A stretch of 36,559 nucleotides of DNA from a virus, in IMG/VR virus record IMGVR_UViG_3300032308_001826, positions 1-36,559 of that record; one strand, given 5' to 3'. The translations under genes were made by a program, and so were the position numbers. Positions 7,979 to 36,559 of this stretch are shown piece by piece; within the stretch, counting starts at the first letter, position 1, and each line of letters opens with the position of its first letter. The notes below the pieces were generated by a model. The model was not told the DNA's origin and ran no database searches. It worked only from the letters and a program-made list of their open reading frames with translations.

Positions 7979-8192
7979 ACCAGACATGACTCCTGAAGAA
8001 ATACAAGACTATCTACGTCAAAACAGGGTAACCAAAGACATGGCAGATGAAGACTTTGCATCATATATTAAAAGATATGTAAAAGAAAATGATAAGGTAT
8101 TGCAAAAATTAGGATCTGATATTGATGAGAATGGAACACCGTATTGGTTAAAGGCAAGACAAGAGCAAATTAAAGGGAGAGATGATATCTGA
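7962..8192 (+). CDS. Unknown small protein
   Basis: 76 codons, MIAWHRPDMTPEEIQDYLRQ, charged and helical, ending KGRDDI. It starts inside the previous gene and its TGA overlaps the ATG of the oxygenase at 8192 (TGATG). Its constant position just before an oxygenase does not reveal a role. Confidence 0.65.
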   Translation: MIAWHRPDMTPEEIQDYLRQNRVTKDMADEDFASYIKRYVKENDKVLQKLGSDIDENGTPYWLKARQEQIKGRDDI

Positions 8193-8815
8193 TGGCGAAT
8201 AGTTTTGTTGACGTATTAGGAACAGACATATCAAATATTAAAACTGATTATAATTTTTTAAATGAAGAGGAACTATATCATTTATTAAGATTTGCGGAAA
8301 TTGGAGAGTCTAGAAATAATGATAAAAAACTTCACATTAGAGCAATGGAACACCTTAATGAAGAAGAGTCTTATTATGCTTCACAATTTGCTACGAAGTT
8401 AAATGATAAAATATTTGATTTTGTAACAAAGGCATACAATAGAGAGTTTATTAAAGAAAAAAATAGTTGGGGATTAAATATTCATAAAGTAAATTCTTTT
8501 ACTGATCCACACACAGATATAATTGAAGAGTCTCCTGGGTTTCAAGAACCTGGACTTGTTGAACCAACTTATCCAAATTGGAAAGATGCATGGGATGGTT
8601 ACTTGGCTTGCAACATATACTTAAATGATAACTATGATGGTGGAGAAGTATATTTTCCTGACAGGAACTATAAATTTAAACCAAAAGCAAACTCAATAGT
8701 CACTTGGCCTGGAAACAAAAATTTTATTCATGGAATTACAAAAACTACAGTTACTAGTAGATATGTCTATGGTTGTTTTTTAAAGTTTGCGGACTATGAC
8801 AAATACAACCAATAG
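8192..8815 (+). CDS. 2OG-Fe(II) oxygenase, prolyl 4-hydroxylase-like (copy A)
   Basis: 207 codons. The double-stranded beta-helix core is complete: HTD at 107-109, the diagnostic YLNDNYDGGEVYFP at 143-156, KPKANSIVTWPG, H180 in FIHGI and R190, which binds the 2-oxoglutarate carboxylate. The enzyme hydroxylates a substrate using O2, 2OG and Fe(II). Its N-terminus (FVDVLGTDISNIKTDYNFL) closely matches the copy at 11577, so the two are paralogs. It is co-translated with the radical SAM gene at 8796. The substrate may be a protein side chain or a small molecule. Confidence 0.9.
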   Translation: MANSFVDVLGTDISNIKTDYNFLNEEELYHLLRFAEIGESRNNDKKLHIRAMEHLNEEESYYASQFATKLNDKIFDFVTKAYNREFIKEKNSWGLNIHKVNSFTDPHTDIIEESPGFQEPGLVEPTYPNWKDAWDGYLACNIYLNDNYDGGEVYFPDRNYKFKPKANSIVTWPGNKNFIHGITKTTVTSRYVYGCFLKFADYDKYNQ

Positions 8816-10873: not shown

Positions 10874-11587
10874 ATGTCTGGCAGATTAATCGTAGGATCA
10901 ATGCACATTGGTCACGTACTCGACATGAGTCAAAGAATGATAGATGCAATTCGTGCTAACAAAATAATATATAGTGATTATATGCCAGACAATTTATATG
11001 ATGTTATAGAATTTTATGGAATGAATAGAAATGATTATGATGTTAGAATTTTAAAAAGCACAAACACATTATTTGCAGATGAATATCAATTAAAAGAATG
11101 TATGGATTTAATAAAAGAAGGAAGAGATGTTTTGTTAGTTGCTGGAGAAGGTCAAATTGGTATAGCAGATCCTGGTAATCAATTTATTCAAGAATGTATT
11201 AAGCAAAAACTTAACTACACTGTATACCCTGGACCAAATTCTCATGTTACAGCCTTTGTTGCAAGTGGAATAACTAACGGAGACTTTACAATATCTTCAA
11301 ACATGCAATATCCAGAAAAAACTATTCAATATTTTAAAGATCAAGATACTCCATTAGTAATACCAATTTGGCCAAACAGACTTAAAGACATGTTACAGTT
11401 AATAGATACTGAGTTTAAGTTTAACAACGGTAAAAATAAACAAGTAACTGTATGCGTAGATATGACATCTAATGAAGAGATGTATATAACTGATTGGGCT
11501 AACAAAATAGCACACAGAGAAGAAATTCAAAAAATTAGAGAACATGGTAAGATAGTTTTAGTAATTAGTGATTTTCTTAAAGAATAA
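10874..11587 (+). CDS. Second tetrapyrrole methylase-fold protein (RsmI-like)
   Basis: 237 codons, preceded by AAAAGGAATAATAAA. RLIVGSMHIGHVLDMSQRMI replaces the usual GNPxDIT loop, so the first motif is diverged. DVLLVAGEGQIGIADPGNQF matches the SDAGxPxxxDPG segment and YTVYPGPNSHVTAFVASGI matches the GPSA segment. It is homologous to the 5905 protein but lacks its Cys-rich N-terminus. The altered substrate loops suggest a new substrate. It ends tail to tail with the oxygenase at 11577. Confidence 0.75.
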   Translation: MSGRLIVGSMHIGHVLDMSQRMIDAIRANKIIYSDYMPDNLYDVIEFYGMNRNDYDVRILKSTNTLFADEYQLKECMDLIKEGRDVLLVAGEGQIGIADPGNQFIQECIKQKLNYTVYPGPNSHVTAFVASGITNGDFTISSNMQYPEKTIQYFKDQDTPLVIPIWPNRLKDMLQLIDTEFKFNNGKNKQVTVCVDMTSNEEMYITDWANKIAHREEIQKIREHGKIVLVISDFLKE

Positions 11588-12191
11588 TTTTATAATTATC
11601 AAAGTCTTTAAATTTTATTGATCTATAAACATTGTATCTATTTCCATCTATAGGATCTTTTACACCATGAATAAAGTTTTTATTACCAGCCCACATAACT
11701 AAAGAGTTTGCTTTAGGTTTAAATTCATAATTTCTGTCAATAAAATATACTTGACCACCAGAGTAGTCATCATTAATGTATATATTACAGGACAGGTAAC
11801 CGTCCCAAGCATTTTTCCAATCAACCAATTCTTTTTCTTCAGGCTTTTCTCTATTCAAACCCTCTATAATGTCAGTGTGTGCAGGAGTTATTGCTCCTGG
11901 AGTTGCTATAGTAGCAGCAAGCATATGTGTATTATCATCAACAAACTCTAAGCCATAAAGTTCTGTAGCAGTTTCTATAATCTTTTTATTATATTTATTT
12001 TGTATTTCAATAATTTCTGGAGTAATAACTTTATCTATTTCTTCTTGAATATGTTGACCATTTTGTGGTTGTGCTGCCGACACCCAATCCAAAAACTTTA
12101 ACATCTTGTTATAATCATCTAAGTCCATAAAGTTTTCTTTAGTCTTAATTAAACTTATGTCACTACCTAAAACATCTGCAAAGTTGTTCAT
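11577..12191 (-). CDS. 2OG-Fe(II) oxygenase, prolyl 4-hydroxylase-like (copy B)
   Basis: 204 codons. It has the same N-terminal signature as copy A (FADVLGSDISLIKTKENFM), then H105/D107 (HTDIIE), YINDDYSGGQVYF, KPKANSLVMWAG, H175 and R185; the active site is complete. It follows the oxygenase at 12188 with ATGA overlap, so two hydroxylases are made together. Copies A and B likely arose by duplication of one phage gene rather than separate acquisition. Confidence 0.9.
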   Translation of the reverse strand: MNNFADVLGSDISLIKTKENFMDLDDYNKMLKFLDWVSAAQPQNGQHIQEEIDKVITPEIIEIQNKYNKKIIETATELYGLEFVDDNTHMLAATIATPGAITPAHTDIIEGLNREKPEEKELVDWKNAWDGYLSCNIYINDDYSGGQVYFIDRNYEFKPKANSLVMWAGNKNFIHGVKDPIDGNRYNVYRSIKFKDFDNYKIIL

Positions 12192-12904
12192 TTTGTATGA
12201 TAGTCTTTGTTTAGATCTCTTAAATATTGTAAGTTTGCTGTGTACGGAAATGGTATTTTTGCTAATCTAGTATCTAGTTCTCTTTGAGTTATGTTAGAGA
12301 AAAAAGAAACTATTGTATATCTAGGATTTCCTGGTCCAATATCATATATCTTGTGTTCATATATGTAAGACGCTGGAAAAACAAATAACTGTTTTGCTTT
12401 TGGCTTAATCTTTAATTTAAAGTTTATAAACTCTAACTCTCCGCCTTCATAGTCATCGTTTGGATAATAAACCATAGCAACAGTTCTTGGGGTTCCGTAA
12501 GAATCATCTGGGTGCATACCAAAATAATCTCCTTCAGTATACTTACTTATTCTCCAATACTCTCTGCTTTGTGGATCTAAATCATAATGCCATAAGTATG
12601 AATCTATAACTTCTTCAAAAACCTTACATAGTTCTAAATCTTTTTCTGGCTCTTCAAATGTTATCCAAGTGCTTACACCTTTTTTGCCAACTTCTTTTGA
12701 GATTTCTTTTCCATCTGAATCGTGTAAATAATCTTCTCTAACAAATCTTCCTTCATCATCTAATTTTTTAATATAATCAAATCCATCTAGCCATACATTA
12801 TCATATATGTGTATTCCTGGTGCTGGTTGTTCATGTTTAAATTTGTTACCCTTGCGACTTTGTGTAATGTTTAACTTAGCATTAGCCAGTTTAATTGGAT
12901 CCAC
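12188..12904 (-). CDS. 2OG-Fe(II) oxygenase, P4H-like (copy C)
   Basis: 238 codons. The start is a GTG at 12904 with GAAAGG nine to ten bases upstream and an extended -10 (TGA-TATAAT) beyond. H131 and D133 (GMHPDD), YYPNDDYEGGELEF, KPKAKQLFVFPA, H184 and R195 form a complete P4H-type site. The long N-terminal half (about 115 residues) differs from copies A and B, implying a different substrate. Confidence 0.88.
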   Translation of the reverse strand: MDPIKLANAKLNITQSRKGNKFKHEQPAPGIHIYDNVWLDGFDYIKKLDDEGRFVREDYLHDSDGKEISKEVGKKGVSTWITFEEPEKDLELCKVFEEVIDSYLWHYDLDPQSREYWRISKYTEGDYFGMHPDDSYGTPRTVAMVYYPNDDYEGGELEFINFKLKIKPKAKQLFVFPASYIYEHKIYDIGPGNPRYTIVSFFSNITQRELDTRLAKIPFPYTANLQYLRDLNKDYHTK

Positions 12905-20976: not shown

Positions 20977-21353
20977 TTTGCACCCAAGTCAATTGCTTTG
21001 AAACCATTTTCTCTGTCAAATAAAATCCAATCCATTGATTCTATTTGCATTTCTCTATTTATGTGTTCAAGAATAATATCTTTATCTAATTCTCCACATG
21101 TGTATAAATCAAATTGCAGCATTGCAGGATCTTTTTCATCCCAAATATGAAATGCAATATGAGATGTTTCAATCATTACTATTGCTGTTAAACCACGATT
21201 TCCTTCAGCCTCAACATAAGAAGCAAAAGGTCCTTTGATAATCTTCATCTGTATTGCATAAACTAGTCTTGTTAAAAACCCAACGCCATCTTCTGGAGTC
21301 TTTAATGGATTTTTTACTTTAGCATTAATCAGTATGTGCTTGTGTTGTAACAT
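20973..21353 (-). CDS. speD: S-adenosylmethionine decarboxylase proenzyme
   Basis: 126 codons, the size of the short bacterial/archaeal class. The self-cleavage region is TSHIAFHIWDEK: S64 is the pyruvoyl-forming serine, H69 the processing His, and C86 in YTCG the proton donor. Between S64 and the Cys there are 21 residues, two more than I expect for the Thermotoga enzyme, and Thr replaces the usual Glu before the serine. It decarboxylates SAM to the aminopropyl donor for spermidine synthesis. speD is a known auxiliary gene in cyanophages; a polyamine role in DNA packaging is plausible. Confidence 0.88.
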   Translation of the reverse strand: MLQHKHILINAKVKNPLKTPEDGVGFLTRLVYAIQMKIIKGPFASYVEAEGNRGLTAIVMIETSHIAFHIWDEKDPAMLQFDLYTCGELDKDIILEHINREMQIESMDWILFDRENGFKAIDLGAK

Positions 21354-22470: not shown

Positions 22471-23124
22471 CTACTTAATAATTGTTACAGAGAATGAGGT
22501 TTTCTTACAAGACTTTAAACTATTTGCAATTGCATCTTTTTCTTTTTTATCAACAGAAAGAGACCATCTAACTTTAACTGATACCCAGTTAGTCAAGTAT
22601 TCGCACACGTATGCTTTATTTGTTGGTAACCAATCTGCTGGATCTCTATCTGATTTTGATCTATTAGATGCACCTGTTACCGCAATTAAATGACGTGGAT
22701 CCATCTGATCATTTGCATAAACTTCACGTTTTTTTGCATCCCATGCCTGTGCACCAGAATCCCATGCCTCTGCTAAAGGAACCATATGATCAACATCAAG
22801 TTTACCTGCTTCAGTTACAGTTACATTGTCGTATATACTTAACCATTTACCACCAGTAATTGCACACTTTTTGTCAACAGTTGGCTTTACAGTTGCTTCT
22901 GAAATAATAACTGCTTTTCTAGAATCACAACCGTTGCCCACTCCAACCCAATGCTTAAATTGTTCTCTTTTATATCCTGTACGAACTTCATCAGCAATCT
23001 TTAAAGTATTTAATGCTGACAATGCATCCTTATATTTTTTATCTGCAGCGTTAGCAGATATAGTATTAAAACATAGTGCTATTGCACACACTGCAACTAA
23101 AACTTTATTATTATGCTTGATCAT
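22471..23124 (-). CDS. Secreted HNH-family nuclease
   Basis: 217 codons. A signal peptide is clear: basic MIKHNNK, hydrophobic VLVAVCAIALCF, cleavage near ANA-A at 25-27. The nuclease core has D110-VDH (H113) in LDVDHMVPLAEA, W128, AND at 137-139 and SNRSKSDRDPADWLP, the layout of actinobacterial secreted HNH/DUF1524-like nucleases. Six cysteines suggest disulphides, fitting export. A phage-encoded exported nuclease could degrade extracellular or competing DNA, or act at the cell surface. It overlaps the 3' end of the kinase gene by 14 bases. Confidence 0.85.
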   Translation of the reverse strand: MIKHNNKVLVAVCAIALCFNTISANAADKKYKDALSALNTLKIADEVRTGYKREQFKHWVGVGNGCDSRKAVIISEATVKPTVDKKCAITGGKWLSIYDNVTVTEAGKLDVDHMVPLAEAWDSGAQAWDAKKREVYANDQMDPRHLIAVTGASNRSKSDRDPADWLPTNKAYVCEYLTNWVSVKVRWSLSVDKKEKDAIANSLKSCKKTSFSVTIIK

Positions 23125-24766: not shown

Positions 24767-24990
24767 TAATCCACCTTTTTACCAAACCTTGACCAGGCTC
24801 TTTCATGTAAGAAAAATCCAACCATTTCACAGGCTGTGTAAATTATTGCAAAAGATCCAGCATATTCCCAGTGTGCTTCACCAGTAATTAACTTTTCAAA
24901 AAAATATACCAACGTACCAACAAAGCCTATGTGAACAATAGGCCAACTAAAACTTTTATACAAACTTCTTTTTCTAGATTCTTTTTTCAT
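24766..24990 (-). CDS. DUF2061-like small membrane protein
   Basis: 74 codons from the ATG at 24990, with AAGG ten bases before. Two membrane spans (WPIVHIGFVGTLVYFFEKLI and AGSFAIIYTACEMVGFFLHE) end in HERAWSRFG, matching the E...HERxW end of DUF2061 proteins. It starts inside the end of the oxidoreductase gene. Function of the family is unknown. Confidence 0.75.
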   Translation of the reverse strand: MKKESRKRSLYKSFSWPIVHIGFVGTLVYFFEKLITGEAHWEYAGSFAIIYTACEMVGFFLHERAWSRFGKKVD

Positions 24991-25951
24991 AAATCTCATT
25001 CCTTATCTCATCAAAGAACTCTGCAAATTTGAGTGATTCATAAACTGACATAACCCAAGATTTTTCTCCCCTAATATGATTAGCAAACTGTTCTGCCATT
25101 ATCTTATAAGGATCACAAGCCTCAAATTCTTCTACTACTATTTTACCATAATTGTTTTCAATAATCAAGTTGCTTACATTATTATAAGAAAAATAAGCAT
25201 CGTTACCTGGTGTACATATCTTACCCTCTGTTCCAGTAATTGTTAAATAGTCCGTTTGTTTAATATTCATAGAAGTAACGGTCCTACACTCTATGTCATC
25301 GATCTTATAATTAATTATTAACGTTTCGTCACAACCATCTGGATGCCAACGTACCTTTGTTTTGATATCTTTAACTGGAGCAAAATCAGTTATCCACAAT
25401 GGTGCAACAGCAGAATAAGGACCAAGGTCATAAAGACTTCCTCCACCTAATTCAGGGGTTGTTCTAATCTTATTAATATCATTAAGTTGAGAATAGGTTG
25501 CAGATGTATCAATACTGGTTATTTGACCAATTAATCCTGAGTCAACTAATTGTTTAATTCTCTTAGTTCGAGGATGCCATCTATTCCAACTTGCTTCCAT
25601 TAACAATTTTCCTGTTGATTCAGAAACCTTGATTGCTTCCTTTAATTCTTGAGCATTCATTGCTATTGGTTTTTCACACAAAACATGCTTTCCTGCTTGC
25701 ATGGCCTTTATTGCCCAAGGAATGTGCAGGGAATTAGGTAGCGAAATATAAACTGCCTCAACTTTTGGATCATCAATTAAATCTTGGTAATCGGTATAAA
25801 ACTTTCCTGAAGGAGATAATGCCTTTGCTCTATCAGCATCCCTTGCTGCTACTGCATAAATTTCACTGGATGAAGAGTTATTTAATGCAGGGTAAAGACC
25901 TATCTTAGCAATTAGACCTGCACCAATAAAACCGAATCTAACTTTCTCCAT
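24974..25951 (-). CDS. Gfo/Idh/MocA-family sugar oxidoreductase
   Basis: 325 codons, normal for the family. N-terminal Rossmann fold GFIGAGLIAKIGLYPAL (GxGxxA), VEAVYISLPNSLH and the diagnostic CEKPIAMNAQEL (EKP at 93-95) with the Lys that assists hydride transfer. MEASWNRWHPRTKRI and GGGSLYDLGPYSA match the C-terminal substrate half. It oxidises a sugar or NDP-sugar with NAD(P). It lies next to a GT60-like transferase and a carbamoyltransferase, so I infer it makes or edits the transferred sugar. Confidence 0.92.
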   Translation of the reverse strand: MEKVRFGFIGAGLIAKIGLYPALNNSSSSEIYAVAARDADRAKALSPSGKFYTDYQDLIDDPKVEAVYISLPNSLHIPWAIKAMQAGKHVLCEKPIAMNAQELKEAIKVSESTGKLLMEASWNRWHPRTKRIKQLVDSGLIGQITSIDTSATYSQLNDINKIRTTPELGGGSLYDLGPYSAVAPLWITDFAPVKDIKTKVRWHPDGCDETLIINYKIDDIECRTVTSMNIKQTDYLTITGTEGKICTPGNDAYFSYNNVSNLIIENNYGKIVVEEFEACDPYKIMAEQFANHIRGEKSWVMSVYESLKFAEFFDEIRNEIYEKRI

Positions 25952-26908
25952 TTATGAATACGTCTTGCTATTAATAATGCTTCTTCTTACCTTCCAATAA
26001 TTTTCTTCCATATCTATTTCATTATAAAAATCTACTATGCTTCTTGTATAGTTTAAAATATTAAAGTATTTATTTTTACCCATTATCATTAATTTTTTGA
26101 CTTCTTTTGTCATTTCTTCATCATCAAAAATCCAGATTCTAGTCCAATGATTTTGATTGTTACGATCAGTTCCAACAAACTTCCACCATCTTTCATCATA
26201 TGGAAACGAGTACTTAACATCGTTGCCAGCATAGTGAACTATATTTTCAGCATATGGAGCAACCACATCATAACCTTGGCAATATACTGCTATAGACTGC
26301 TCTGGTTCTTCAAATGGAAATCTATGATATGAAGGAAACTTTATAGCCTTAATGTCAGAACATTTTGCAAAAATAAAATTACAAGAAATATAATAATTTT
26401 TAAAATATTTGTCATTAACTCTATCTTTATTTAATACTGAATCAAACTCAACAACTTCACCATGCAAATCCAACTCATCAAAATCTCCATCTATAATCCA
26501 TTTTGTTTTCCAATTATGTTTACCTTGAATAGTGGCTGTAGCCTGTCTAGATATTATTCTCTTTTCATTGTTCTTGGTTAATTCTTCTATGTCATCTATT
26601 AAGGCAGTGTCCCAGTTAAGTTCAAAATCTGCATGAGCATCTATTCCTAAGAAATACTGTTCATCGTCTATTAGACCTCTTATAGCCTCTCTAATGCCCA
26701 CTATACCTGGCTGACCCTCTGCTATGTCTTGATCTCTAACTATCTTTACATCATTAAACATTGATAGGTCTGGCTCTTCTTTATAGTTTAGTCCAAGTCC
26801 AAATACAATATTTTCAGGGTAATAGGCAGTATCCAAAATATGATTCATGGTATCTACTAGATGAGTATCTTCCCATGCTGGAATAGATACAAATATTTTT
26901 TTATTCAT
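25952..26908 (-). CDS. GT60-like glycosyltransferase (Skp1 GlcNAc-transferase type)
   Basis: 318 codons from the ATG at 26908, in TAATG overlap with the carbamoyltransferase. MNKKIFVSIPAWEDTHLVDT opens like family GT60 (PF11397), followed by YYPENIVFGLGLNY, QPGIVGIREAI, YFLGIDAHADFELNWD (DAH at 90-92 in place of DSH, WD at 99-100), CNFIFAKCSDIKA and PFEEPEQSIAVYCQGYDVVAP. GT60 adds GlcNAc to hydroxyproline of Skp1 after a prolyl hydroxylase acts. Five to seven prolyl-hydroxylase-like oxygenases in this window make that pairing striking. Donor and target remain inferred. Confidence 0.8.
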   Translation of the reverse strand: MNKKIFVSIPAWEDTHLVDTMNHILDTAYYPENIVFGLGLNYKEEPDLSMFNDVKIVRDQDIAEGQPGIVGIREAIRGLIDDEQYFLGIDAHADFELNWDTALIDDIEELTKNNEKRIISRQATATIQGKHNWKTKWIIDGDFDELDLHGEVVEFDSVLNKDRVNDKYFKNYYISCNFIFAKCSDIKAIKFPSYHRFPFEEPEQSIAVYCQGYDVVAPYAENIVHYAGNDVKYSFPYDERWWKFVGTDRNNQNHWTRIWIFDDEEMTKEVKKLMIMGKNKYFNILNYTRSIVDFYNEIDMEENYWKVRRSIINSKTYS

Positions 26909-28338
26909 TATATTATCTTTGCTCCGTATGCTTGTTCCCAATTAATTATATCACTCTCATCATTAAGTAATGGTTGACCCTTAATATTTAAACTGGTATT
27001 AAGCAAAACTGGTACCTTTGATATTTTGTACCATCTAGACAACAGGTCGTATAGTCCAGGATGCTGATCCTTATTTACAGTCTGAACCCTAGAAGTTCCA
27101 TCTTTATGAACAACGGAAGGTATCAAGTCTGGCTTTAAACACTTAACTGCGTACTGCATATAAGGACTTGTAAAACTCATATCAAACCATTTACTTGCAT
27201 GCTCTTCCATCACAACTGGTGCAAAAGGTCTAAAGAGTTCACGCTTTTTAATATTATTAACCTTATCTTTAATGTTTGGATCTCTAGGGTCTGCTAATAT
27301 ACTTCTGTTACCTAACGCTCTTGGTCCATATTCTGCTCTTCCACTCGCTACCGCCGCAATTCCGTTATTCACTATTTCATTTAATGCTGCATATACTGGA
27401 TAGTTATCTCCCAAATCATATCCAAGAAACGGTGTCTTAAAATCAACATGCTTTCCATACAAGGCTGCTGCAGCACCTAAAGAACTTCCAGCATCTCCAG
27501 GGTTTGGCATAATCCATATATCATCAAATATATTCCACAACAACGTATTAGCAGAACAGTTAAGAGCACAACCACCCATAAAAACTAATTTATTTTTCTT
27601 AGTTAATCTTTTTGCCATATACATAAAATCTATTAACTTTATTTGATAAACTTCTTGTACTGCTGCGGCAATATCAAACCTATCTTGCTCAGTTATTTCT
27701 GATCCCCAATCAAAAATTCCTTTATGAAAATTATATTTTTGATACCCAATTGATGGAAAGTATTCTAAAACTTTTTTAAGATATTTTTGTTTATCTCCAT
27801 AAGCAGCCATGCCCATCATTATGTACTCTTCTTGGTTTGGCATTAAACCAATCAGTTGAGTAAAAGCAGAATAAAATAAACCAAAACTAAACGGATAGTT
27901 ATCTTTGTACATTAATTTAATATCATTTCCTTCTCCAGTCCAAATGGTAGAGGTATTAAATTCTCCAATTGAATCAAGCACTACTATTACTGCATCATCA
28001 AACTTGCTAGTATAGTACCCTGCTGCAGCATGCGAGTAATGATGTTTAAAATTAGTTCTTGGTATTGCATTAAGATAGGTATGTTCAAACCAAGGTTTGC
28101 CGCCACCAAAACCACCGCGAGTTGCAACTCTTAGTTTCTTTAAAAATGGATTTTCATAGTAGGCTATTTGATCTGGAATCCCATACTGCAATGCATTATC
28201 TATTAAACCCTTATTAGTAAACCAATCGTTTTTAACTTTACTATATCTTTCTGCATGCCCAGAAAATAAAACTTCATCGTCTTTAATTAAAGATATAGAA
28301 GCATCATGCGTTGTTTCATTAATTCCCATGATTAGCAT
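26908..28338 (-). CDS. NodU/CmcH-family carbamoyltransferase
   Basis: 476 codons. MLIMGINETTHDASISLIKD begins the kinase-like fold. HHYSHAAAGYYTSKFDDAVI carries the HxxxH metal site, and FMGGCALNCSANTLL and MPNPGDAGSSLGAAAAL the nucleotide side. The C-terminus GRAEYGPRALGNRSILADPR then RPFAPVVMEEHASKWFD is diagnostic of the YrdC-like/transferase partner domain. It carbamoylates hydroxyl groups, usually of sugars, using carbamoyl phosphate and ATP. Located between SGNH and GT60-like genes, it probably decorates a glycan. It is slightly shorter than the typical family length. Confidence 0.9.
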   Translation of the reverse strand: MLIMGINETTHDASISLIKDDEVLFSGHAERYSKVKNDWFTNKGLIDNALQYGIPDQIAYYENPFLKKLRVATRGGFGGGKPWFEHTYLNAIPRTNFKHHYSHAAAGYYTSKFDDAVIVVLDSIGEFNTSTIWTGEGNDIKLMYKDNYPFSFGLFYSAFTQLIGLMPNQEEYIMMGMAAYGDKQKYLKKVLEYFPSIGYQKYNFHKGIFDWGSEITEQDRFDIAAAVQEVYQIKLIDFMYMAKRLTKKNKLVFMGGCALNCSANTLLWNIFDDIWIMPNPGDAGSSLGAAAALYGKHVDFKTPFLGYDLGDNYPVYAALNEIVNNGIAAVASGRAEYGPRALGNRSILADPRDPNIKDKVNNIKKRELFRPFAPVVMEEHASKWFDMSFTSPYMQYAVKCLKPDLIPSVVHKDGTSRVQTVNKDQHPGLYDLLSRWYKISKVPVLLNTSLNIKGQPLLNDESDIINWEQAYGAKII

Positions 28339-28345
28339 CTATGCA

Positions 28346-29146
28346 TCACATTCTATCTAAAAATTCTATAGCCCATGCGTGATGTGCAGCCTCGCTTGGA
28401 TGACTTCCATCATTTCCCACAATAGTCATAGAAGGATCAATATCTTGTATATACCTAAAAGTATTATCAGCAAATCTTTTATTATCTATTTGATAATAAG
28501 TATCAAAAGATTCTTTCATACTATTATGTGTTTTAATCTCATAATCTTGTATATCCAAATGAATAAAATCAGTTACTCCTGGAACGGTATCCACCCAAGA
28601 TGTTGTAATTAGTTTAATGTTTTTATTTTTACAATAACTATCCAATATGCTGTATAAATTATATACAAATAAATCTACTATTGTTCCATCTCTACCAATA
28701 TTAGTATTAAATTTATTCCAATCTCTGCCGTAATTAGAAAAAAGAATAACTATATAGTCTGGATCAGAATATTGTGCAATATATTTAAAAACATTTAAAA
28801 GTATTTCTACTGGAGATCCACCAGACAAACTTACATTAAAATATCCACTACACTCTTCTCTTTTATTCATTTCATTATAGACCTTATAAGACCAACTTTT
28901 TTTAATATTATCTAACCCACAACCTGCTGTAATTGAACATCCAGCAAACAACAAGTGTTTTTTATTATTATGATTTTTTGTAAATGCATCAGAAAAATAT
29001 TCATTATAAAATGATTTTTCTAAGTTTGGTTTTAAAAAAGGTCCTGCAATATCTTTATCTTTTGTTAATAAATATTGAAAAAACTGAGGAGTCTTTGTTC
29101 TTTGCTCTTCAACTATTTCTTTAAATTTATCTTTATCATAATTCAT
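28346..29146 (-). CDS. SGNH/GDSL-type hydrolase (copy 1)
   Basis: 266 codons. Nucleophile motif FAGCSITAGCG (S71) is block I with Cys before Ser. SLSGGSPVEILLNVF fits the Gly block, ILFSNYGRD the Asn region and NDGSHPSEAAHHAW the catalytic DxxH block. SGNH enzymes remove or transfer acyl groups on glycans. Its paralog lies directly upstream. I infer acetylation editing of the glycan made by the neighbouring transferases. Confidence 0.8.
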   Translation of the reverse strand: MNYDKDKFKEIVEEQRTKTPQFFQYLLTKDKDIAGPFLKPNLEKSFYNEYFSDAFTKNHNNKKHLLFAGCSITAGCGLDNIKKSWSYKVYNEMNKREECSGYFNVSLSGGSPVEILLNVFKYIAQYSDPDYIVILFSNYGRDWNKFNTNIGRDGTIVDLFVYNLYSILDSYCKNKNIKLITTSWVDTVPGVTDFIHLDIQDYEIKTHNSMKESFDTYYQIDNKRFADNTFRYIQDIDPSMTIVGNDGSHPSEAAHHAWAIEFLDRM

Positions 29147-29214
29147 ATTAGTAAATAAAGTCTCTTTTTTTAAAATGTTTTTTATTTTTTCTTAACCAAA
29201 AATAAAACTTAATC

Positions 29215-30135
29215 TTATATATTATTTGCTTCATTTAGATACCTTTCGTAAAAATATTCACTCCATGCATCATGGTAAGAAATTCCGTAATGTCCAGACC
29301 CATCTAACGTTTCCATTAAATTTGGCTTATTTTTATTTTTTACACAATATTCGTACACATTTTTATAAAACTGTAACGTATTCATAGTTTTAAAAGTTTT
29401 AGTATTTTTTTCTAATAAAACAATATGTTCGTAAGGATCTCTAAATTTAAACTCACGATAACTACTTTCATCACTTGAAGGTAGATATCCATTTTCATCA
29501 GTAAGACTATAATTATTATTTATCATATTTAAATTACTTTCAAGTTTATGCCACAATAAATCTTGTTCTGGAACTATCCAGGTAGTTGATATTAATTTTA
29601 TATTATTAGATATACAATAATCTTCAAATTGTTTATAAAATTCAATAACAAATGGAGTAAGCAATATATCTGGATTTTTTAAATATATAAAATCTCTTTC
29701 AAGATCTGGTAACAATAAAAATACCACATCTGGCTTTGAATATTTTCTTATATATCTATAAATATTTGTTATTGTTTCTATTACACTTCCACCTGAAATT
29801 CCAAGATTAAAATATCCACTAAACTGTTCCTCTAGTAAAAGTTTTTTATATAACGAATAACTCCAAACCTCTTCATACTTACTTCCAACACCAAAAGTGT
29901 GTGAACAACCAGAAAACAAAACATGTTTTTTATCATGTGTTTGTAAAAATTCATCACACCTAAACCCTTGTTCGTTTAACTTAACAGGGTTATTTGCTTT
30001 ATCAAAATATTTAATTACATCATCATTATCTTTCTTTATTAAAAAATCTTCTAAACTAGTATGTATTAAAAATTCATTTAGTTTAGCACGATATCTATGA
30101 TTAGAATACAAAATGTCTTGTTCAAACGTATTCAT
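29215..30135 (-). CDS. SGNH/GDSL-type hydrolase (copy 2)
   Basis: 306 codons, starting in TAATG. VLFSGCSHTFGVGSKYEEVW (S78) and LGISGGSVIETITNIYRYI match copy 1 closely; FLLLPDLERDF replaces its Asn block. The C-terminus holds LDGSGHYGISYHDAWSEYF, where the DxxH block carries Gly-Ser. N-terminal 65 residues are unique. Two unequal paralogs side by side suggest different acyl or glycan substrates. Confidence 0.78.
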   Translation of the reverse strand: MNTFEQDILYSNHRYRAKLNEFLIHTSLEDFLIKKDNDDVIKYFDKANNPVKLNEQGFRCDEFLQTHDKKHVLFSGCSHTFGVGSKYEEVWSYSLYKKLLLEEQFSGYFNLGISGGSVIETITNIYRYIRKYSKPDVVFLLLPDLERDFIYLKNPDILLTPFVIEFYKQFEDYCISNNIKLISTTWIVPEQDLLWHKLESNLNMINNNYSLTDENGYLPSSDESSYREFKFRDPYEHIVLLEKNTKTFKTMNTLQFYKNVYEYCVKNKNKPNLMETLDGSGHYGISYHDAWSEYFYERYLNEANNI

Positions 30136-30809
30136 TACTCTTCTCCAGTTGAATTTCTAATCATGTGCGACGGTACATTATGAAACCAAGTTGGTAGTGC
30201 ATATCTTGGCCCCTTCAAAACAGAATCAACTTCGTGAACATATAAAAAGTTAGATGGAAAAAAAACAATACTACCTGCTGATGGTTTAATAGTTACATTG
30301 GATTGTTTAAATGTTATTTCCCCACCAACATAGTCATCGTTAAGGTATAACAGTACAGATAAAACCCTAGTACTTACACCCTGGTCTTGATGTGGTGGTA
30401 AGTATCCAGACTTATCATATCTTAATAAACTAGTTGCGTGCTCTTTTGCTTTAACATTTTTTTGTGCAAATGGATATAATTTTGTTGAATAGTGCAATAG
30501 TGCTTCATCAATTGATCCATGTATTCTAGAAGATATGTTTCTTTGTTCATCTTTAAAAGCATCATCTTCTGATATCTGTTCCATAGTTGGAATAAACTTT
30601 TGCCAACAAAATATTTCTTTTGTTCCAGCACTATCATTAATCCAAGGAGACCAAGGTTGAACAACTGTTCTTTGTTTAATATCTTCAGAACTATTCAAAA
30701 ACCTTTCTTCTAAGTCTTCTATGTTTCTTATAATCTGATCAGTATTTTTTACAACATTCTTATAATATACTAAACCTAAATCTAATACTTCATGATCTAT
30801 TGAACTCAC
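30135..30809 (-). CDS. 2OG-Fe(II) oxygenase, P4H-like (copy F)
   Basis: 224 codons. The start is a GTG at 30809, within the last 20 bases of the next oxygenase gene, with GAGAGG before it. H140/D142 (LPPHQDQG), YLNDDYVGGEITF, KPSAGSIVFFPS, H192 (YVHEV) and R202 complete the site. TAATG coupling to the SGNH gene shows that hydroxylation and acyl-editing enzymes are made together. Confidence 0.88.
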   Translation of the reverse strand: MSSIDHEVLDLGLVYYKNVVKNTDQIIRNIEDLEERFLNSSEDIKQRTVVQPWSPWINDSAGTKEIFCWQKFIPTMEQISEDDAFKDEQRNISSRIHGSIDEALLHYSTKLYPFAQKNVKAKEHATSLLRYDKSGYLPPHQDQGVSTRVLSVLLYLNDDYVGGEITFKQSNVTIKPSAGSIVFFPSNFLYVHEVDSVLKGPRYALPTWFHNVPSHMIRNSTGEE

Positions 30810-31416
30810 GCTCTGCAGCCTCTCTTTCTAATGGATACTCTACGGCTTGCCAAGTTGGATTCTTATCTTCCCCCAAGAAATCTGGATCTGCATGTTCTGG
30901 AAGTGATGTGTGCATATATAGTGCAGTGTATCTATGACCTTCAGTTACTTCAGTAATACCGTGAATATATTCTGTACCAGAACTTGGAAAGAATACTGCA
31001 GAATATTTTTTAGGCTGGTATACAAAATCTTGATTAGGAAAAAATATTTTACCACCTTGGTATTCTGGAGTTTCATTTAAATAAATTATTGTACTAAATT
31101 CTATAAATGGTTCTGGACCTTGTGCATCTAAATGTAGTCCACCCCTTGTACCCTTTATCCAGTGTGATCCAAAACCTTTAAACACATATATTGGATTAAG
31201 AAATCCGTTAAGGGACCTGTGTATTTCATTAGACTTATTGCCATACTTAATCATAATATCCATGACCGTTTTATTGTACGGTAATGATGTACCACCATAT
31301 CTTTTACTATAGTATTCTGGATACGGATTAACCTCTGATGGGTTGTGTTGTTCCCTTATTAGGGTATCTGCGTCTTCCTTGGTTATGAAATTATCCACTA
31401 CCGCGATTCTATGCAT
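30790..31416 (-). CDS. 2OG-Fe(II) oxygenase, P4H-like (copy G)
   Basis: 208 codons, MHRIAVVDNFITKEDADTLI. H95/D97 (GGLHLDAQG), YLNETPEYQGGKIFFP, H152 (YIHGI) and R162 are all present; the Asp-Gly-Gly turn is varied (YQGGK). It has its own promoter, so the oxygenase-SGNH-carbamoyltransferase-GT60 run probably starts here. Best guess is a hydroxylase of a peptide or amino-acid side chain. Confidence 0.86.
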   Translation of the reverse strand: MHRIAVVDNFITKEDADTLIREQHNPSEVNPYPEYYSKRYGGTSLPYNKTVMDIMIKYGNKSNEIHRSLNGFLNPIYVFKGFGSHWIKGTRGGLHLDAQGPEPFIEFSTIIYLNETPEYQGGKIFFPNQDFVYQPKKYSAVFFPSSGTEYIHGITEVTEGHRYTALYMHTSLPEHADPDFLGEDKNPTWQAVEYPLEREAAEREFNRS

Positions 31417-31436
31417 ACTGTTCCTGTCTTTTCTCT

Positions 31437-31442
31437 ATTATA
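31437..31442 (-). promoter_or_regulatory. Extended -10 promoter of the 31416 operon
   Basis: On the minus strand TGA-TATAAT lies about 20 bases before the ATG at 31416, with ACAGGAAC as ribosome site, so unlike many genes here this mRNA has a leader. It sits at the end of the gene at 31446. It would drive 31416 through 24581. Confidence 0.55.
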
Positions 31443-31445
31443 TCA

Positions 31446-32369
31446 TTAATCAATATAGTTGATCTTAGTCATAAACTTCTTTGAATCTATGTCAGTAAAC
31501 AAAGATGCGTCTGGATCGTACTCTACATCGTTTAATGGAAACGGTATATAGTTTAATTCATTAATATTAATCTTATGCTTTCCAAAGAAAGAAGCAGCAT
31601 CCCCCATTAAAGGCTTGCCTATATCCTCATATTTATTTTTTTGTTTTTTAAACAAATCAATCATTTCATTATAGTTGTGATATTTAGAAAAGGTTGTATA
31701 CAGGTATTCCAAAGTATCTACTTCATCCTTATTGTAAAAACTATCTGGACAACTGTATACCTTTATATGGTTACTATAGTATAAAAGAGATAGGGTTTCC
31801 TCTTCACCATAATACTTCATGTACCATGGATAGCCAATTTGTTGTAATGTTGATGTATGTCCAAAAATTAAATCTCTGCTAACAAAATATGTTTGATTAA
31901 GACTATCAGTTGTTTCTTCTTCTTTTTTTAAATAAAACAACCCATCATTACTCAAAGTTATTTTATTCTTTCCACTAATAATAGACTGTTTATCTTTAAG
32001 ATTTTTTAACAAATATTCATCCCAGTCTTGACTTAAATATATATTGTCAGACAACAATAATGTATATGAATACTGGGATTGACTAAGTATGTCATTTTTA
32101 TACTTACAAGGACTTTTTATTTTATCCCAAACAATGTGACTGTAGTTAACGTCTTGAAAATTTTCAAAGTATTCCCATTTTTCTAAAGCATTTTCATTAT
32201 AAAATCCAAACTGATCCCATTTTGTTAAAGGGCTTTGATCAAAAATTTTAACAAATATTTTATTTTTTTTAGAAGATCTTTCTACTAAATTGGCAACAAC
32301 ATTTTTTAAATTTTTGTTCTTATAAGAATATATAATTACATTGATTGGATTAGGCAAATCTTTATTCAT
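31446..32369 (-). CDS. Second, diverged GT60-like glycosyltransferase
   Basis: 307 codons. INVIIYSYKNKNLKNVVANL opens the GT-A fold; IFVKIFDQSPL and KSPCKYKNDILSQSQYSYTL parallel the GT60 segment before the DxH. At 104-117, LLLSDNIYLSQDWD replaces the IDSH...WD, so SDN stands where DSH would be. YFVSRDLIFGHTSTLQQIGY and YYGEEETLSLLYYSNHIKVY match the C-terminal half including EE. The altered metal site may change donor or activity. It overlaps the DUF6065-like gene upstream by eight bases. Confidence 0.7.
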   Translation of the reverse strand: MNKDLPNPINVIIYSYKNKNLKNVVANLVERSSKKNKIFVKIFDQSPLTKWDQFGFYNENALEKWEYFENFQDVNYSHIVWDKIKSPCKYKNDILSQSQYSYTLLLSDNIYLSQDWDEYLLKNLKDKQSIISGKNKITLSNDGLFYLKKEEETTDSLNQTYFVSRDLIFGHTSTLQQIGYPWYMKYYGEEETLSLLYYSNHIKVYSCPDSFYNKDEVDTLEYLYTTFSKYHNYNEMIDLFKKQKNKYEDIGKPLMGDAASFFGKHKININELNYIPFPLNDVEYDPDASLFTDIDSKKFMTKINYID

Positions 32370-33123
32370 CAGAATCTTCTTTTAAACCCTTGTTTCTAAA
32401 TAGTTTTTTTCTCCAAGCAGTTTTTTTATAATAACCATATAACATTGACCTTCTATTCTCTGCTTTAAACTCATGCTCGTCAAATTTTTCTTGACTTAAA
32501 TCTAATTCCATTTCCCAATTATCTCTTTTAAAAGGTATCATTTGAAATAGTGGAGTTCCCTTTTTAATAATTCCCTGAAAGCCTCTCTTTAAAAAGAATG
32601 CTGTAAACACTGGAAGGCCCCATATATCTGATTCGACAATACCAGACATAGTAATAAAAGGTAGATCGTGTCTATTCATTGGATGAGTTATTAATACAGA
32701 ATAACCTGGAGGTGTTTCATAGTACCAATTCATTCTCCATCCGTAATGTATTGGATGACAGTTATCTGGAACTGGAAGATCTATTGTTGGTCTTTTATCC
32801 ATTATCATTATATCTTTATCCCAAGATAATTTTGGTTTTCCATCTTTATCTAACTCTACTAACAAATCATCTTCTAATAAATAATAATATCCAGCAGTTA
32901 ATGAATCAAGAAATGGCATACACATCTTTGTTGCAACTCTTGCACCATCTCCACCTATATTATTTACTGGAGATAAATACTTTTCGTCATTCCATATTTC
33001 ATGTTTTGCCAAAGCCTTATACCATTCTGGCACATGCTTTACAGCAGGTTCTGGTGGAGTAAAAATGTTATTATAGTTTGGTCCACCACCTGGAGTAAAA
33101 GATATTTTTAGTGGATCATTCAT
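32362..33123 (-). CDS. DUF6065-like protein (copy 2)
   Basis: 253 codons. MCMPFLDSLTAGYYYLLEDD, TPPGYSVLITHPMNRHDLPF, GIVESDIWGLP, FFLKRGFQGIIKKGTPLFQM and PFKRDNWEMELD correspond segment by segment to copies 1 and 3. N-terminus SFTPGGGPNYNNIFTPPEPA precedes the PEWYKAL segment. The family is beta-rich and soluble, of unknown function. It overlaps copy 3 by one base (TAATG). Its position beside oxygenases and GTs suggests it supports modification of a shared target. Confidence 0.75.
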   Translation of the reverse strand: MNDPLKISFTPGGGPNYNNIFTPPEPAVKHVPEWYKALAKHEIWNDEKYLSPVNNIGGDGARVATKMCMPFLDSLTAGYYYLLEDDLLVELDKDGKPKLSWDKDIMIMDKRPTIDLPVPDNCHPIHYGWRMNWYYETPPGYSVLITHPMNRHDLPFITMSGIVESDIWGLPVFTAFFLKRGFQGIIKKGTPLFQMIPFKRDNWEMELDLSQEKFDEHEFKAENRRSMLYGYYKKTAWRKKLFRNKGLKEDSDE

Positions 33124-33851
33124 TACTTATATTCTTTTTTTTGTCTAAATTTTTCTTTATAAGAATTTCTAAAACTGCTTCTCACTAAAAGTCTTTGTCT
33201 TTCAATTTCACCCTTTCCTTCAGAGTGAGCAACAAATTCTGATTCCCAACTTTCTCTTTTAAAAGGAATTGCTTGAATCAATGGCGTTCCTTGTTTAATT
33301 ATTCCTTCAAAACCTTTTTCAATATGCATTGAAAGATGTCCATCTGAAGCAAATCTATCTGTGTCAACAACTGCTTCAAACATTTGAAATGGAACTGGAT
33401 CTCTATGAAATGGATGAGTAAACAATGTGCTGTATCCTTTTGGGGTCATCAATGCCCAAAACGGTAATATTCTAAATATTTGTTTGTGATATCTGTCTAA
33501 GTTTACTGGATAATTAGATACTTGTTCTGTTGTATGAGTTGCAATCATGTCGTTTCCAAGAAACTTTAATTCATTTGGAACACTCCAAGTTATTTTTTCT
33601 GGATTAGTAGCATTAACATATATGTCCATTGGAACTTTAAAAATGTATCCAGCAGTTATCAAATCAAATATTGGCATACATCTTTTTATTGTGCTACTCA
33701 TACCACCTTTAGATATATACTCTTTAAACTCATCACCTATAAATCCTGGCTGTTGCTTGTACCAATCTGGCATACACTTAATTGCTGCTTCTGGTTTTGG
33801 TACAAAAACTTCTGTCTTATCAGAAAAAGGATAGAAACTAACCTTATTCAT
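33123..33851 (-). CDS. DUF6065-like protein (copy 3)
   Basis: 242 codons. KRCMPIFDLITAGYIFKVPM, TPKGYSTLFTHPFHRDPVPF, AVVDTDRFASDGHL, IEKGFEGIIKQGTPLIQAIP and FKRESWESEF are the family landmarks. It starts by overlap with the 33844 gene's stop (TATGAATAA). Copies 2 and 3 are adjacent and coupled, consistent with tandem duplication and divergence. Confidence 0.75.
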   Translation of the reverse strand: MNKVSFYPFSDKTEVFVPKPEAAIKCMPDWYKQQPGFIGDEFKEYISKGGMSSTIKRCMPIFDLITAGYIFKVPMDIYVNATNPEKITWSVPNELKFLGNDMIATHTTEQVSNYPVNLDRYHKQIFRILPFWALMTPKGYSTLFTHPFHRDPVPFQMFEAVVDTDRFASDGHLSMHIEKGFEGIIKQGTPLIQAIPFKRESWESEFVAHSEGKGEIERQRLLVRSSFRNSYKEKFRQKKEYK

Positions 33852-34551
33852 AAAATCTCCTAATCTCTTTTACCATTATATCACTTGCCTCAAAAACCAT
33901 GTTGTACATTGGAGAAAACCTACTTATCTTTCCATACTCTTGATCAACCATATGACTTCCTATTTTCTTAAATTGAAAGTGAACAAAAGGTGGATCAACA
34001 TGTTGAGTGTTGTTTAGTATTTTTTTAAAACTCATTGTGTCTTCTGATATTAGAAATGGAGAACCCTCTGGTTGCCTAATGTCAACAGATATATCTTCAT
34101 CAATAATCCAAGGTACATAGAATCTAAATGTCTGATTAAAACATGTTGCAGAGTCACCAAAGTCTTCCCTATCTGATAAATAGTATTGCCTAATCCAAGG
34201 ACGATCTAAGTTCCACATAATTCTTTCCTTATATGGCTCATCCCTTTCCATTGTGTTAATAATTTCAGGGCTATTAACTAAAAATATTTCAGCATGATTA
34301 GTTTGCTGAAGAGTAACCACATTGTTATCAATACTTATTAGTTTTGGTTTTGGATATAGCCTATCAACATAAAGGTTAATTGGTTTTATAATATCATTAT
34401 CTTTTCCTTTGATGCCTTCAGGATAACTAAGCCATCTTGATGGAACCCTAGATCTTTTATTAATCCATGAAAAAGATTCAGACTTTGATTTATGCCATAT
34501 AAAAAAGTCTTCTCTTAATTCAGAGATTGACTCGTTATTGCTCTGTTTCAT
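33844..34551 (-). CDS. Unknown protein, possibly a distant DUF6065 relative
   Basis: 235 codons, MKQSNNESISELREDFFIWH. Order along the sequence: RVPSRWLSYPEGIKGKDNDI, FRFYVPWIIDEDISVDIRQP, EGSPFLISEDTMSF and HVDPPFVHFQFKKIGSHMVD. The length and a VPWI...GSPF segment vaguely recall the neighbours' TPxGYS region, but I cannot show homology. It overlaps genes on both sides. Confidence 0.65.
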   Translation of the reverse strand: MKQSNNESISELREDFFIWHKSKSESFSWINKRSRVPSRWLSYPEGIKGKDNDIIKPINLYVDRLYPKPKLISIDNNVVTLQQTNHAEIFLVNSPEIINTMERDEPYKERIMWNLDRPWIRQYYLSDREDFGDSATCFNQTFRFYVPWIIDEDISVDIRQPEGSPFLISEDTMSFKKILNNTQHVDPPFVHFQFKKIGSHMVDQEYGKISRFSPMYNMVFEASDIMVKEIRRFYE

Positions 34552-35718: not shown

Positions 35719-36559
35719 TTATTCTGAAACTAACACTAACTTGTCAGTAACAGTTAAACCTTTTTGCCATTGTGTTGCAACAGCAACATTTGCAGAAGAG
35801 GTTGTTTGAGGAATTAAACCAAACAGCACTGAGCCATAATTAAACTTACCTGTTGGTAATACTCCAAAATAATCTGTATTAGCATCATGATTTCCTACTG
35901 GAAATGTAGAAACAGAAACTGTATCAGTAATACATGCTGGATACGCTACTGGTTTTCTATTTGAATCATTACCTGTAGAAACAAATACTGGTATGCCTTT
36001 ATTTTTTAAACTGGTAACTGTTGATCTAATTGCTGGATCGACAATTTTAATGTTAACTAATCCAGTTGGAGAAAGTTTACATTCTCCTGGTTTTGTCATA
36101 TTTCCACTTAGTCCATAAGAAAATGACACAGCAGATACATTTGATGAATTAGCATCCACCCATTTCAATGCTGCAAGAAAATCATTTCCATTTAAAATTC
36201 CAACTGCACCTTTTTTATCAACATTTGCTGACCTTAACAAAACTAGAGGGACGTTTGGATTATTTCTACGAGCAACCTCAACCATAGCCATACCATGATT
36301 TACTGGATCAGAAACTCTCTTAGAAGGTTTCGGTGTATTTACACACTTATCTGTTGCAATACAAACAATAGTTGTGTTAGCAACTCTTGTATCAAAGTAA
36401 CTATCAATAATTACAATTGGTTTAGTATTAACTGCTGGTGTTGGAGTTGGTGTAACAACTGGTGTTGGAACAACAACTGGTGTTGGACTCTCAACTATAG
36501 GTGTTGGAGTTGGTGTAACAACTGGTGTTGGAACAACAACTGGTGTTGGACTCTCAACT
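35719..36559 (-). CDS. Subtilisin-like (S8) serine protease, N-terminus outside window
   Basis: The open frame reaches the window edge, about 280 residues. A Pro/Thr/Val repeat linker (36437-36559) precedes IVIIDSYFDT (catalytic Asp), DPVNHGMAMVEVARR (catalytic His), VSFSYG, PVFVSTGNDSNRKPVAYPAC (oxyanion Asn) and QTTSSANVAVATQW, where the Ser sits in a TSxA-like motif in place of GTSMA. All three catalytic residues are thus present. Pro-Thr linkers are usual for secreted or virion-attached enzymes. Possibly a structural or tail-associated protease, or an exported enzyme. Confidence 0.82.
   Translation of the reverse strand, partial: VESPTPVVVPTPVVTPTPTPIVESPTPVVVPTPVVTPTPTPAVNTKPIVIIDSYFDTRVANTTIVCIATDKCVNTPKPSKRVSDPVNHGMAMVEVARRNNPNVPLVLLRSANVDKKGAVGILNGNDFLAALKWVDANSSNVSAVSFSYGLSGNMTKPGECKLSPTGLVNIKIVDPAIRSTVTSLKNKGIPVFVSTGNDSNRKPVAYPACITDTVSVSTFPVGNHDANTDYFGVLPTGKFNYGSVLFGLIPQTTSSANVAVATQWQKGLTVTDKLVLVSE
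36437..36559 (-). repeat. 63-bp tandem repeat encoding a Pro-Thr-Val linker
   Basis: One full unit (36437-36499) and 60 bases of a second (36500-36559) are identical, running past the edge. The encoded unit is VESPTPVVVPTPVVTPTPTP plus Ile. The exact identity of the copies points to recent expansion by slippage or unequal recombination, and the linker length probably varies between relatives. Confidence 0.88.

Follow-up and report, generated by a model that had tools for sequence, protein, structure and literature searches.

A candidate hydroxylate-then-glycosylate protein-modification module in an environmental phage contig

What might a phage gain from two oxygenases of the prolyl-hydroxylase type encoded beside a glycosyltransferase, in an order that its relatives keep? 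The question is raised by the IMG/VR virus record IMGVR_UViG_3300032308_001826, a contig of 36.6 kb with a G+C content of ~33%, which was analysed over its whole length (36,559 nucleotides, here called the window) and for which no whole-region DNA match was found among cultured phages. Between positions 24974 and 34551 its minus strand carries a run of co-directional, mostly overlapping genes, just as an original prediction made from the letters of the DNA had described it; the genes are referred to here by their first coordinate (Table 1). That prediction proposed that the run encodes a pathway in which a protein is first hydroxylated and then glycosylated. The best explanation of the locus is, in our assessment, indeed a phage protein-modification module of this kind, with a probability of roughly 55% and with its chemistry predicted. 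The precedent is the Skp1 pathway: GT60 enzymes are polypeptide α-N-acetylglucosamine (GlcNAc) transferases, and one of them caps Skp1 at a hydroxyproline that a PHD-type hydroxylase has made (PMC8724618, PMC7864055). Prolyl 4-hydroxylase (P4H)-type and GT60-type enzymes are both present and linked in the module, and since GT60 is a family of polypeptide transferases, one of which caps Skp1 hydroxyproline, hydroxylation followed by glycosylation accounts best for the combination.

The two core oxygenases, which depend on 2-oxoglutarate (2OG) and Fe(II), carry the first half of this argument. The proteins of the window were assigned to families with the curated cut-offs of Pfam and with PHROGs, NCBIfam and the PDB sequences as references, and both 30790 and 30135 passed the cut-off of PF13640. 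The nearest solved structure to 30790 by sequence is P3H1 (6.8e-7), and those nearest to 30135, which begins with a GTG codon overlapping 30790, are PKHD (6e-6), P3H1 (1e-5), a B. anthracis-type P4H (2e-5) and PHD2; the matches cover mainly the C-terminal core. The catalytic residues are kept as well: in 30790 the HxD motif (H95, D97), H152 and R162 are invariant in 77 distinct viral loci, and in 30135 the HxD motif (H140, D142), H192 and R202 show a conservation of 97% or more over 76 of them. The prediction of two oxygenases of the prolyl-hydroxylase type was thus borne out by the family matches, by the prolyl and PKHD hydroxylases among the nearest structures and by the conserved triad and arginine. 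These comparisons place 30135 and 30790 in the prolyl-hydroxylase structural group, with proline hydroxylation itself as the predicted activity. No relatives of 30790 were found in cultured phages.

The second half of the argument concerns the transferases, of which two had been called GT60-like, with 25952 in the leading place. The assignment of 25952 stood, with 56.4 bits against PF11397 (cut-off 21), and its motifs D90-x-H92 and W99-D100, which we take to be the counterpart of the metal-binding DXD motif, are invariant in 11 sequences. Its leading place was lost, since PF11397 is matched in just 6 of 20 large relatives; 25952 is an accessory gene and the constant transferase is 31446. The latter is matched directly by no profile of Pfam (PF11397 included), PHROGs or NCBIfam. 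It was placed near GT60 because its family aligns with that of 25952 (hhalign probability 96%, E 2.8e-9), because iterated profiles of the two families recover each other (4e-21 and 2e-21) and because two of its orthologues pass the PF11397 cut-off of 21 (with 31.0 and 22.2 bits), while a third matches the GT2 family PF00535 instead. By these alignments 31446 is classed as a GT-A transferase, divergent yet close to GT60. Its structure model, with a mean predicted local distance difference test score (pLDDT) of 54, is usable in the N-terminal half alone, and at this low confidence it matches GT-A enzymes that include polypeptide GalNAc-transferases and the mimivirus collagen glucosyltransferase R699; a search of the PDB sequences with the GT60 families returned no Gnt1-type relative. 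On profile evidence, then, 25952 is a member of the GT60 family and 31446 belongs to the same superfamily, and transfer of α-GlcNAc to a polypeptide is the predicted reaction.

The arrangement of these genes was followed in viral contigs, which were scanned with the two oxygenase and the two transferase families, after which every open frame was searched with profiles. In 137 loci, of which 77 are distinct, 33844 is followed by one or two DUF6065-like genes, 31446 and 30790; 30135 comes directly after 30790 in 72 of the 77, and in 4 more one gene lies between them. Because it is kept in 77 distinct loci, this order is more than chance. The packing is tight, with a median gap of 28 bp between 31446 and 30790 and an overlap of 16 bp between the oxygenases, and the order persists down to ~40% identity of 33844 and 34% identity of 31446. 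The carbamoyltransferase gene (26908 in the window) comes after the core in most relatives; it is within reach in 40 loci and often lies further along. Among the members of the gene set originally listed, co-occurrence in related phages therefore held for the DUF6065-like genes, 31446 and the oxygenases. It did not hold for 25952, the SGNH genes and the Gfo gene, which vary among the relatives and are accessory, and the original list had missed 33844 altogether.

A division within this conserved order became visible when pairwise identities were compared, by Mantel permutation, in the 39 loci that have all six genes. The identities of 33844, the DUF6065-like protein and 31446 co-vary with a correlation (rho) of 0.66-0.84, and a second group, 30790, 30135 and the carbamoyltransferase, does so with a rho of 0.49-0.64, whereas values across the two blocks range from -0.01 to 0.30. 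In certain pairs of loci the oxygenases are 98-100% identical, yet the 33844 and 31446 proteins share only 55-58%. The correlation falls at the junction of 31446 and 30790, genes 28 bp apart, so that the split is not a mere decay with distance. A fixed block of 30790, 30135 and carbamoyltransferase beside a swapped block of 33844, DUF6065 and 31446 would fit a hydroxylation step that stays constant while the glycosylation cassette is exchanged, perhaps to change specificity. The near independence of the two blocks could also be read as a sign that there is no joint pathway at all, and that a stable late operon has gathered unrelated auxiliary genes whose order is kept by common descent alone. 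The phages are related and may have inherited the order, and the seven 2OG oxygenase genes of the window are scattered over it, which would suit such an operon. We nevertheless consider it improbable, as each block co-diverges as a unit, most gaps are near zero, the order survives the sequence divergence given above, and the coupling of GT60 with oxygenases recurs in unrelated bacteria.

This last point comes from a scan of GTDB genomes, which yielded 70 loci and was unbiased towards oxygenases because the query was the GT60 family alone. In SAR86, 21 of 25 loci have a 2OG oxygenase gene at most 70 bp from the GT60 gene, in divergent orientation; these and related divergent pairs are found in loci L071-L128. 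A Rhizobiales genome has the two genes in tandem, 6 bp apart, and in this genome and two SAR86 genomes that were checked, the sole PF13640 gene found is the one paired with GT60. In three alphaproteobacterial chains of ~2000 amino acids several GT60 stretches are joined to two 2OG matches (L061:9104-15184, L084:8033-14233 and L101:7055-13072; one of these also has a clear AhpC/TSA-type redoxin domain). A fourth fusion, from an even phylum sample, combines P4H, GT60 and a tubulin-tyrosine-ligase-type (TTL) domain in 875 amino acids (L333:490-3114). As judged from gene neighbourhoods and domain matches, the coupling of GT60 to P4H-type oxygenases recurs independently in bacteria, both as gene pairs and as single-chain fusions, and it makes the hydroxylate-then-glycosylate reading a reasonable one. 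A more tentative extension, possible though rather less probable than the module itself, is that the constant hydroxylation by 30790 and 30135 (with the carbamoyltransferase) and the swappable 33844-DUF6065-31446 cassette, together with the bacterial pairs and fusions, modify a virion protein or a secreted phage protein and represent a prokaryotic counterpart, and conceivably an evolutionary source, of the eukaryotic Skp1 pathway.

The genes that surround the core admit a different chemistry. The NodU-type carbamoyltransferase was confirmed, with its two Carbam_trans domains at 175.6 and 114.3 bits against cut-offs of 27 and 24, as was the Gfo/Idh/MocA oxidoreductase by its Pfam match. The two SGNH hydrolases were upheld in part: 28346 reaches 19.9 bits against a GDSL cut-off of 23.6 and 29215 has no Pfam match, but the two form one family. 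In known cases NodU-type carbamoyltransferases use sugars, as in Nod factors, and enzymes of the SGNH and Gfo/Idh/MocA kinds typically serve in polysaccharide metabolism. The oxygenases might accordingly oxidise a sugar, a lipid or a free amino acid while the other enzymes build or decorate a glycan of the host cell surface, so as to mask receptors or exclude superinfection; protein hydroxylation would then play no part. TarS and TarP, transferases of wall teichoic acid that are among the low-confidence fold matches of 31446, point the same way, as does Stenotrophomonas phage RAS14, where a GT60 gene lies beside a carbamoyltransferase gene with no oxygenase among the neighbours scanned. On the other side, the solved structures nearest to the oxygenases belong to protein hydroxylases, and GT60 is known as a polypeptide transferase family and is fused to P4H-type domains in bacteria. 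The carbamoyltransferase 26908 misses the cut-off of the NodU equivalog NF041651 by far (149.7 bits against 1000), so that a sugar substrate is not to be assumed for it. Tailoring of a glycan or small molecule is in our view somewhat unlikely.

The DUF6065-like proteins and 33844 complete the core. For the former, Pfam matches are below threshold or missing: against DUF6065 (PF19541) 32362 scores 18.5 bits, under the cut-off of 26.6, and 33123 has no match, although phrog_7084 is strongly matched by both (4e-32 and 7e-45) and also by 18898. The model of the DUF6065-like protein (pLDDT 73) has dUTPases and dCTP deaminases as its top PDB matches, all of them weak (best E 1.5e-3), and it matches the model of a viral dUTPase at 2.6e-4. 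The haloarchaeal tailed viruses HF1 and HRTV-8 have a phrog_7084/DUF6065 protein that is ~30% identical over 92% of 33123; they differ in having a single such gene by the tail cluster, with no oxygenase or GT60 annotated nearby. In haloarchaeal viruses the DUF6065-like gene ends the tail gene cluster (L042:11866-12702, L043:9866-10750). For 33844, Pfam, PHROGs, NCBIfam and the PDB sequences gave no match, and the idea that it is a divergent DUF6065 protein was dropped after a profile comparison gave a probability of 1.7%.

The resemblance to dUTPases brings up DNA hypermodification, in which a base hydroxylated by the oxygenases would be decorated by the transferases and the carbamoyltransferase, as in phages with 5-carbamoyloxymethylcytosine. 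A phage carbamoyltransferase of the NodU family has been proven to act on 5-hydroxymethylcytosine (PMC8670742), and Tet_JBP matches occur, though weak and under the cut-off. The published DNA-modifying carbamoyltransferases co-occur, however, with thymidylate synthase homologues, and others are flanked by glycosyltransferases (PMC8670742). Genes for DNA modification were searched for in 20 large relatives of 75-125 kb, whose records may be incomplete: neither thymidylate synthase/hydroxymethylase (PF00303) nor C5-methyltransferase (PF00145) was found in any of the 20, and neither PF12851 (TET) nor the canonical dUTPase (PF00692) came over the cut-off. That neither thymidylate synthase homologues nor C5-methyltransferases were found in these relatives, nor TET above the cut-off, argues against hypermodification of DNA, which we regard as highly improbable.

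In the module as we picture it, 30790 and 30135 would hydroxylate side chains, probably prolines, of a protein of the phage or of one to which the phage directs them; 31446, with 33844 and the DUF6065-like protein as partners, would add the first sugar to that hydroxyl or to a neighbouring one; and the sugar would then be elaborated by 25952, the NodU-type carbamoyltransferase, the SGNH hydrolases and the Gfo oxidoreductase. A protein as substrate, proline as the residue, the sugar, the sequence in which the steps follow and the acceptor, which may be a virion tail protein or a secreted PT-repeat protein, are what we infer. The second of these acceptors is suggested by the S8-like product of 35722-36558, which remains a candidate only, since the repeat is absent in more distant relatives. 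Collagen-like tail proteins of relatives are candidates too. They looked striking as acceptors in several relatives, and their linkage to 2OG genes was tested by circular shift; it was not above chance and the median distance was as expected, so that this role is not claimed for them. One relative, G021, has within a single stretch (L307:4585-10525) a collagen-like tail protein, a protein with a (TP)n run of 42 residues and a GT60 gene, with a 2OG oxygenase gene just upstream.

A number of observations weigh against this scheme. The main loose end is the weakly matched, predicted dUTPase-like fold of the DUF6065-like proteins, for which protein glycosylation does not account. PF13640 also includes oxygenases that act on other substrates, and the basic residue at the 2OG position is an arginine in the phage enzymes and a lysine in their SAR86 counterparts. 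Among the acceptors, the PT-repeat of the 35722-36558 protein occurs in close relatives only, while distant relatives that bear the module have no such repeat, and a collagen-like tail gene lies within 5 kb of a 2OG gene in 6 of 12 cases where 4.1 were expected (P=0.19). Finally, when 398 Pseudomonadota genomes were sampled evenly, GT60 was found in 28, with ~3.7 kb seen around each gene, and most of these genes have a methyltransferase domain or no visible oxygenase nearby. GT60 was therefore discarded as a general sign of hydroxyproline: on its own it does not imply hydroxyproline, because most of the sampled genes are fused to a methyltransferase and not to a P4H. Fusions of GT60 to a methyltransferase were seen in several Pseudomonadota genomes (loci L310-L339). 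What stands of the predicted pathway is the gene content with its enzyme families and catalytic residues, the kept gene order, the co-evolution in two blocks and the recurrent coupling of GT60 with oxygenases in bacteria.

The host is likely an actinobacterium, as the large terminase of a 91-kb relative resembles those of Streptomyces phages such as Gilson (Stanwilliamsviridae), to which it is 55% identical and by which, rather than by PF03237, it was recognised. Besides 30135 and 30790 the window encodes at least five more 2OG oxygenases, which brings the total to seven. It also encodes a GmrSD_C/HNH-type protein with an apparent signal peptide (22471-23124) and further auxiliary metabolic genes (8787-9743, 14264-14932 and 20973-21353), among which radical-SAM-like and nucleotidyltransferase-like proteins were recognised by eye and an S-adenosylmethionine decarboxylase by a match.

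Table 1. Genes of the candidate module and related features of the window (aa, amino acids).
Position	Strand	Feature	Remarks
33844..34551	-	Core gene U, 235 aa	Evolves fast; its divergence tracks that of DUF6065 and 31446
33123..33851	-	Core gene D, phrog_7084/DUF6065-like, 242 aa	Fold model weakly resembles dUTPases
32362..33123	-	Second DUF6065-like core gene D, 253 aa	phrog_7084
31446..32369	-	Core glycosyltransferase g, GT-A type, GT60 superfamily	Placed by profile comparison
30790..31416	-	Core 2OG-Fe(II) oxygenase A, prolyl-hydroxylase-like	PF13640 4.9e-8, over cut-off
30135..30809	-	Core 2OG-Fe(II) oxygenase B, PKHD/P3H/P4H-like	PF13640 1.5e-16, over cut-off
29215..30135	-	Accessory SGNH-like hydrolase	0-3 copies in relatives
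28346..29146	-	Accessory SGNH/GDSL-like hydrolase	GDSL under cut-off
26908..28338	-	NodU-type O-carbamoyltransferase	Carbam_trans_C 8e-52, Carbam_trans_N 1e-32
25952..26908	-	Accessory GT60 (PF11397) glycosyltransferase	PF11397 4.6e-15
24974..25951	-	Accessory Gfo/Idh/MocA oxidoreductase	GFO_IDH_MocA 7e-26, C3 2e-12; close relatives only
35722..36558	-	S8-like secreted protein, inferred candidate acceptor	PT-repeat PTPVVVPTPVVTPTPTP at the N-terminus; truncated at the window end
18898..19620	-	Third DUF6065-like (phrog_7084) copy	Outside core
8192..8815	+	Further 2OG oxygenase	Outside module
11577..12191	-	Further 2OG oxygenase	Outside module
12188..12904	-	Further 2OG oxygenase	Outside module
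16181..16837	-	Further 2OG oxygenase	Outside module
17929..18582	+	Further 2OG oxygenase	Outside module; PF13640 1.7e-8

If the hydroxylate-then-glycosylate reading is true, the glycosylation of hydroxylated residues, so far a matter of eukaryotes and giant viruses, would extend to phages and bacteria, a function would be found for some of the 2OG oxygenases that abound, unexplained, in environmental phages, and the oxygen-sensing pathway of Skp1 would have a testable origin. Through the oxygenase-GT60 pair of SAR86 and the fusions in bacteria, recombinant proteins give access to the chemistry with no need to culture the phage, and the cultured phage RAS14 gives access to the GT60-carbamoyltransferase step. 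No P4H-GT60 system of a phage or bacterium came to light in a partial literature search, which is weak evidence of novelty.

Among the systems that can be set beside the module, RAS14 resembles it in that a gene matching PF11397 (1.5e-73) immediately precedes one for a NodU-type carbamoyltransferase, as 25952 and 26908 adjoin here, and differs in having no 33844-type, DUF6065 or P4H-type gene among the neighbours scanned; both of its genes (L340:5992-9809) are annotated as hypothetical. The prolyl 4-hydroxylase of PBCV-1 was reportedly found by Eriksson in 1999 to act on virus-coded proline-rich repeats, but it belongs to a eukaryotic virus and has no dedicated GT60-type partner. A viral P4H of the chloroviruses is mentioned, by citation, in PMC7019647. 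The two-step scheme as such is known from eukaryotes and giant viruses, the viral precedent being mimivirus, whose L230 lysyl hydroxylase/transferase and R699 collagen glucosyltransferase likewise combine a viral hydroxylase and a transferase on a collagen-like protein (PMC9546862). The mimivirus enzymes act on the hydroxylysine of collagens, whereas the 2OG genes of the phage relatives show no linkage to collagen-like genes above chance (P=0.19). A further precedent is the pair of PhyA and Gnt1 (GT60) in Dictyostelium and Toxoplasma, where an oxygenase of the PHD/P4H type is followed by a GT60 enzyme on the cytoplasmic protein Skp1 (PMC8724618, PMC7864055). Unlike that pathway, the module is encoded by a phage, has two oxygenases, a carbamoyltransferase and the partners 33844 and DUF6065, and employs a divergent relative of GT60 as its constant transferase.

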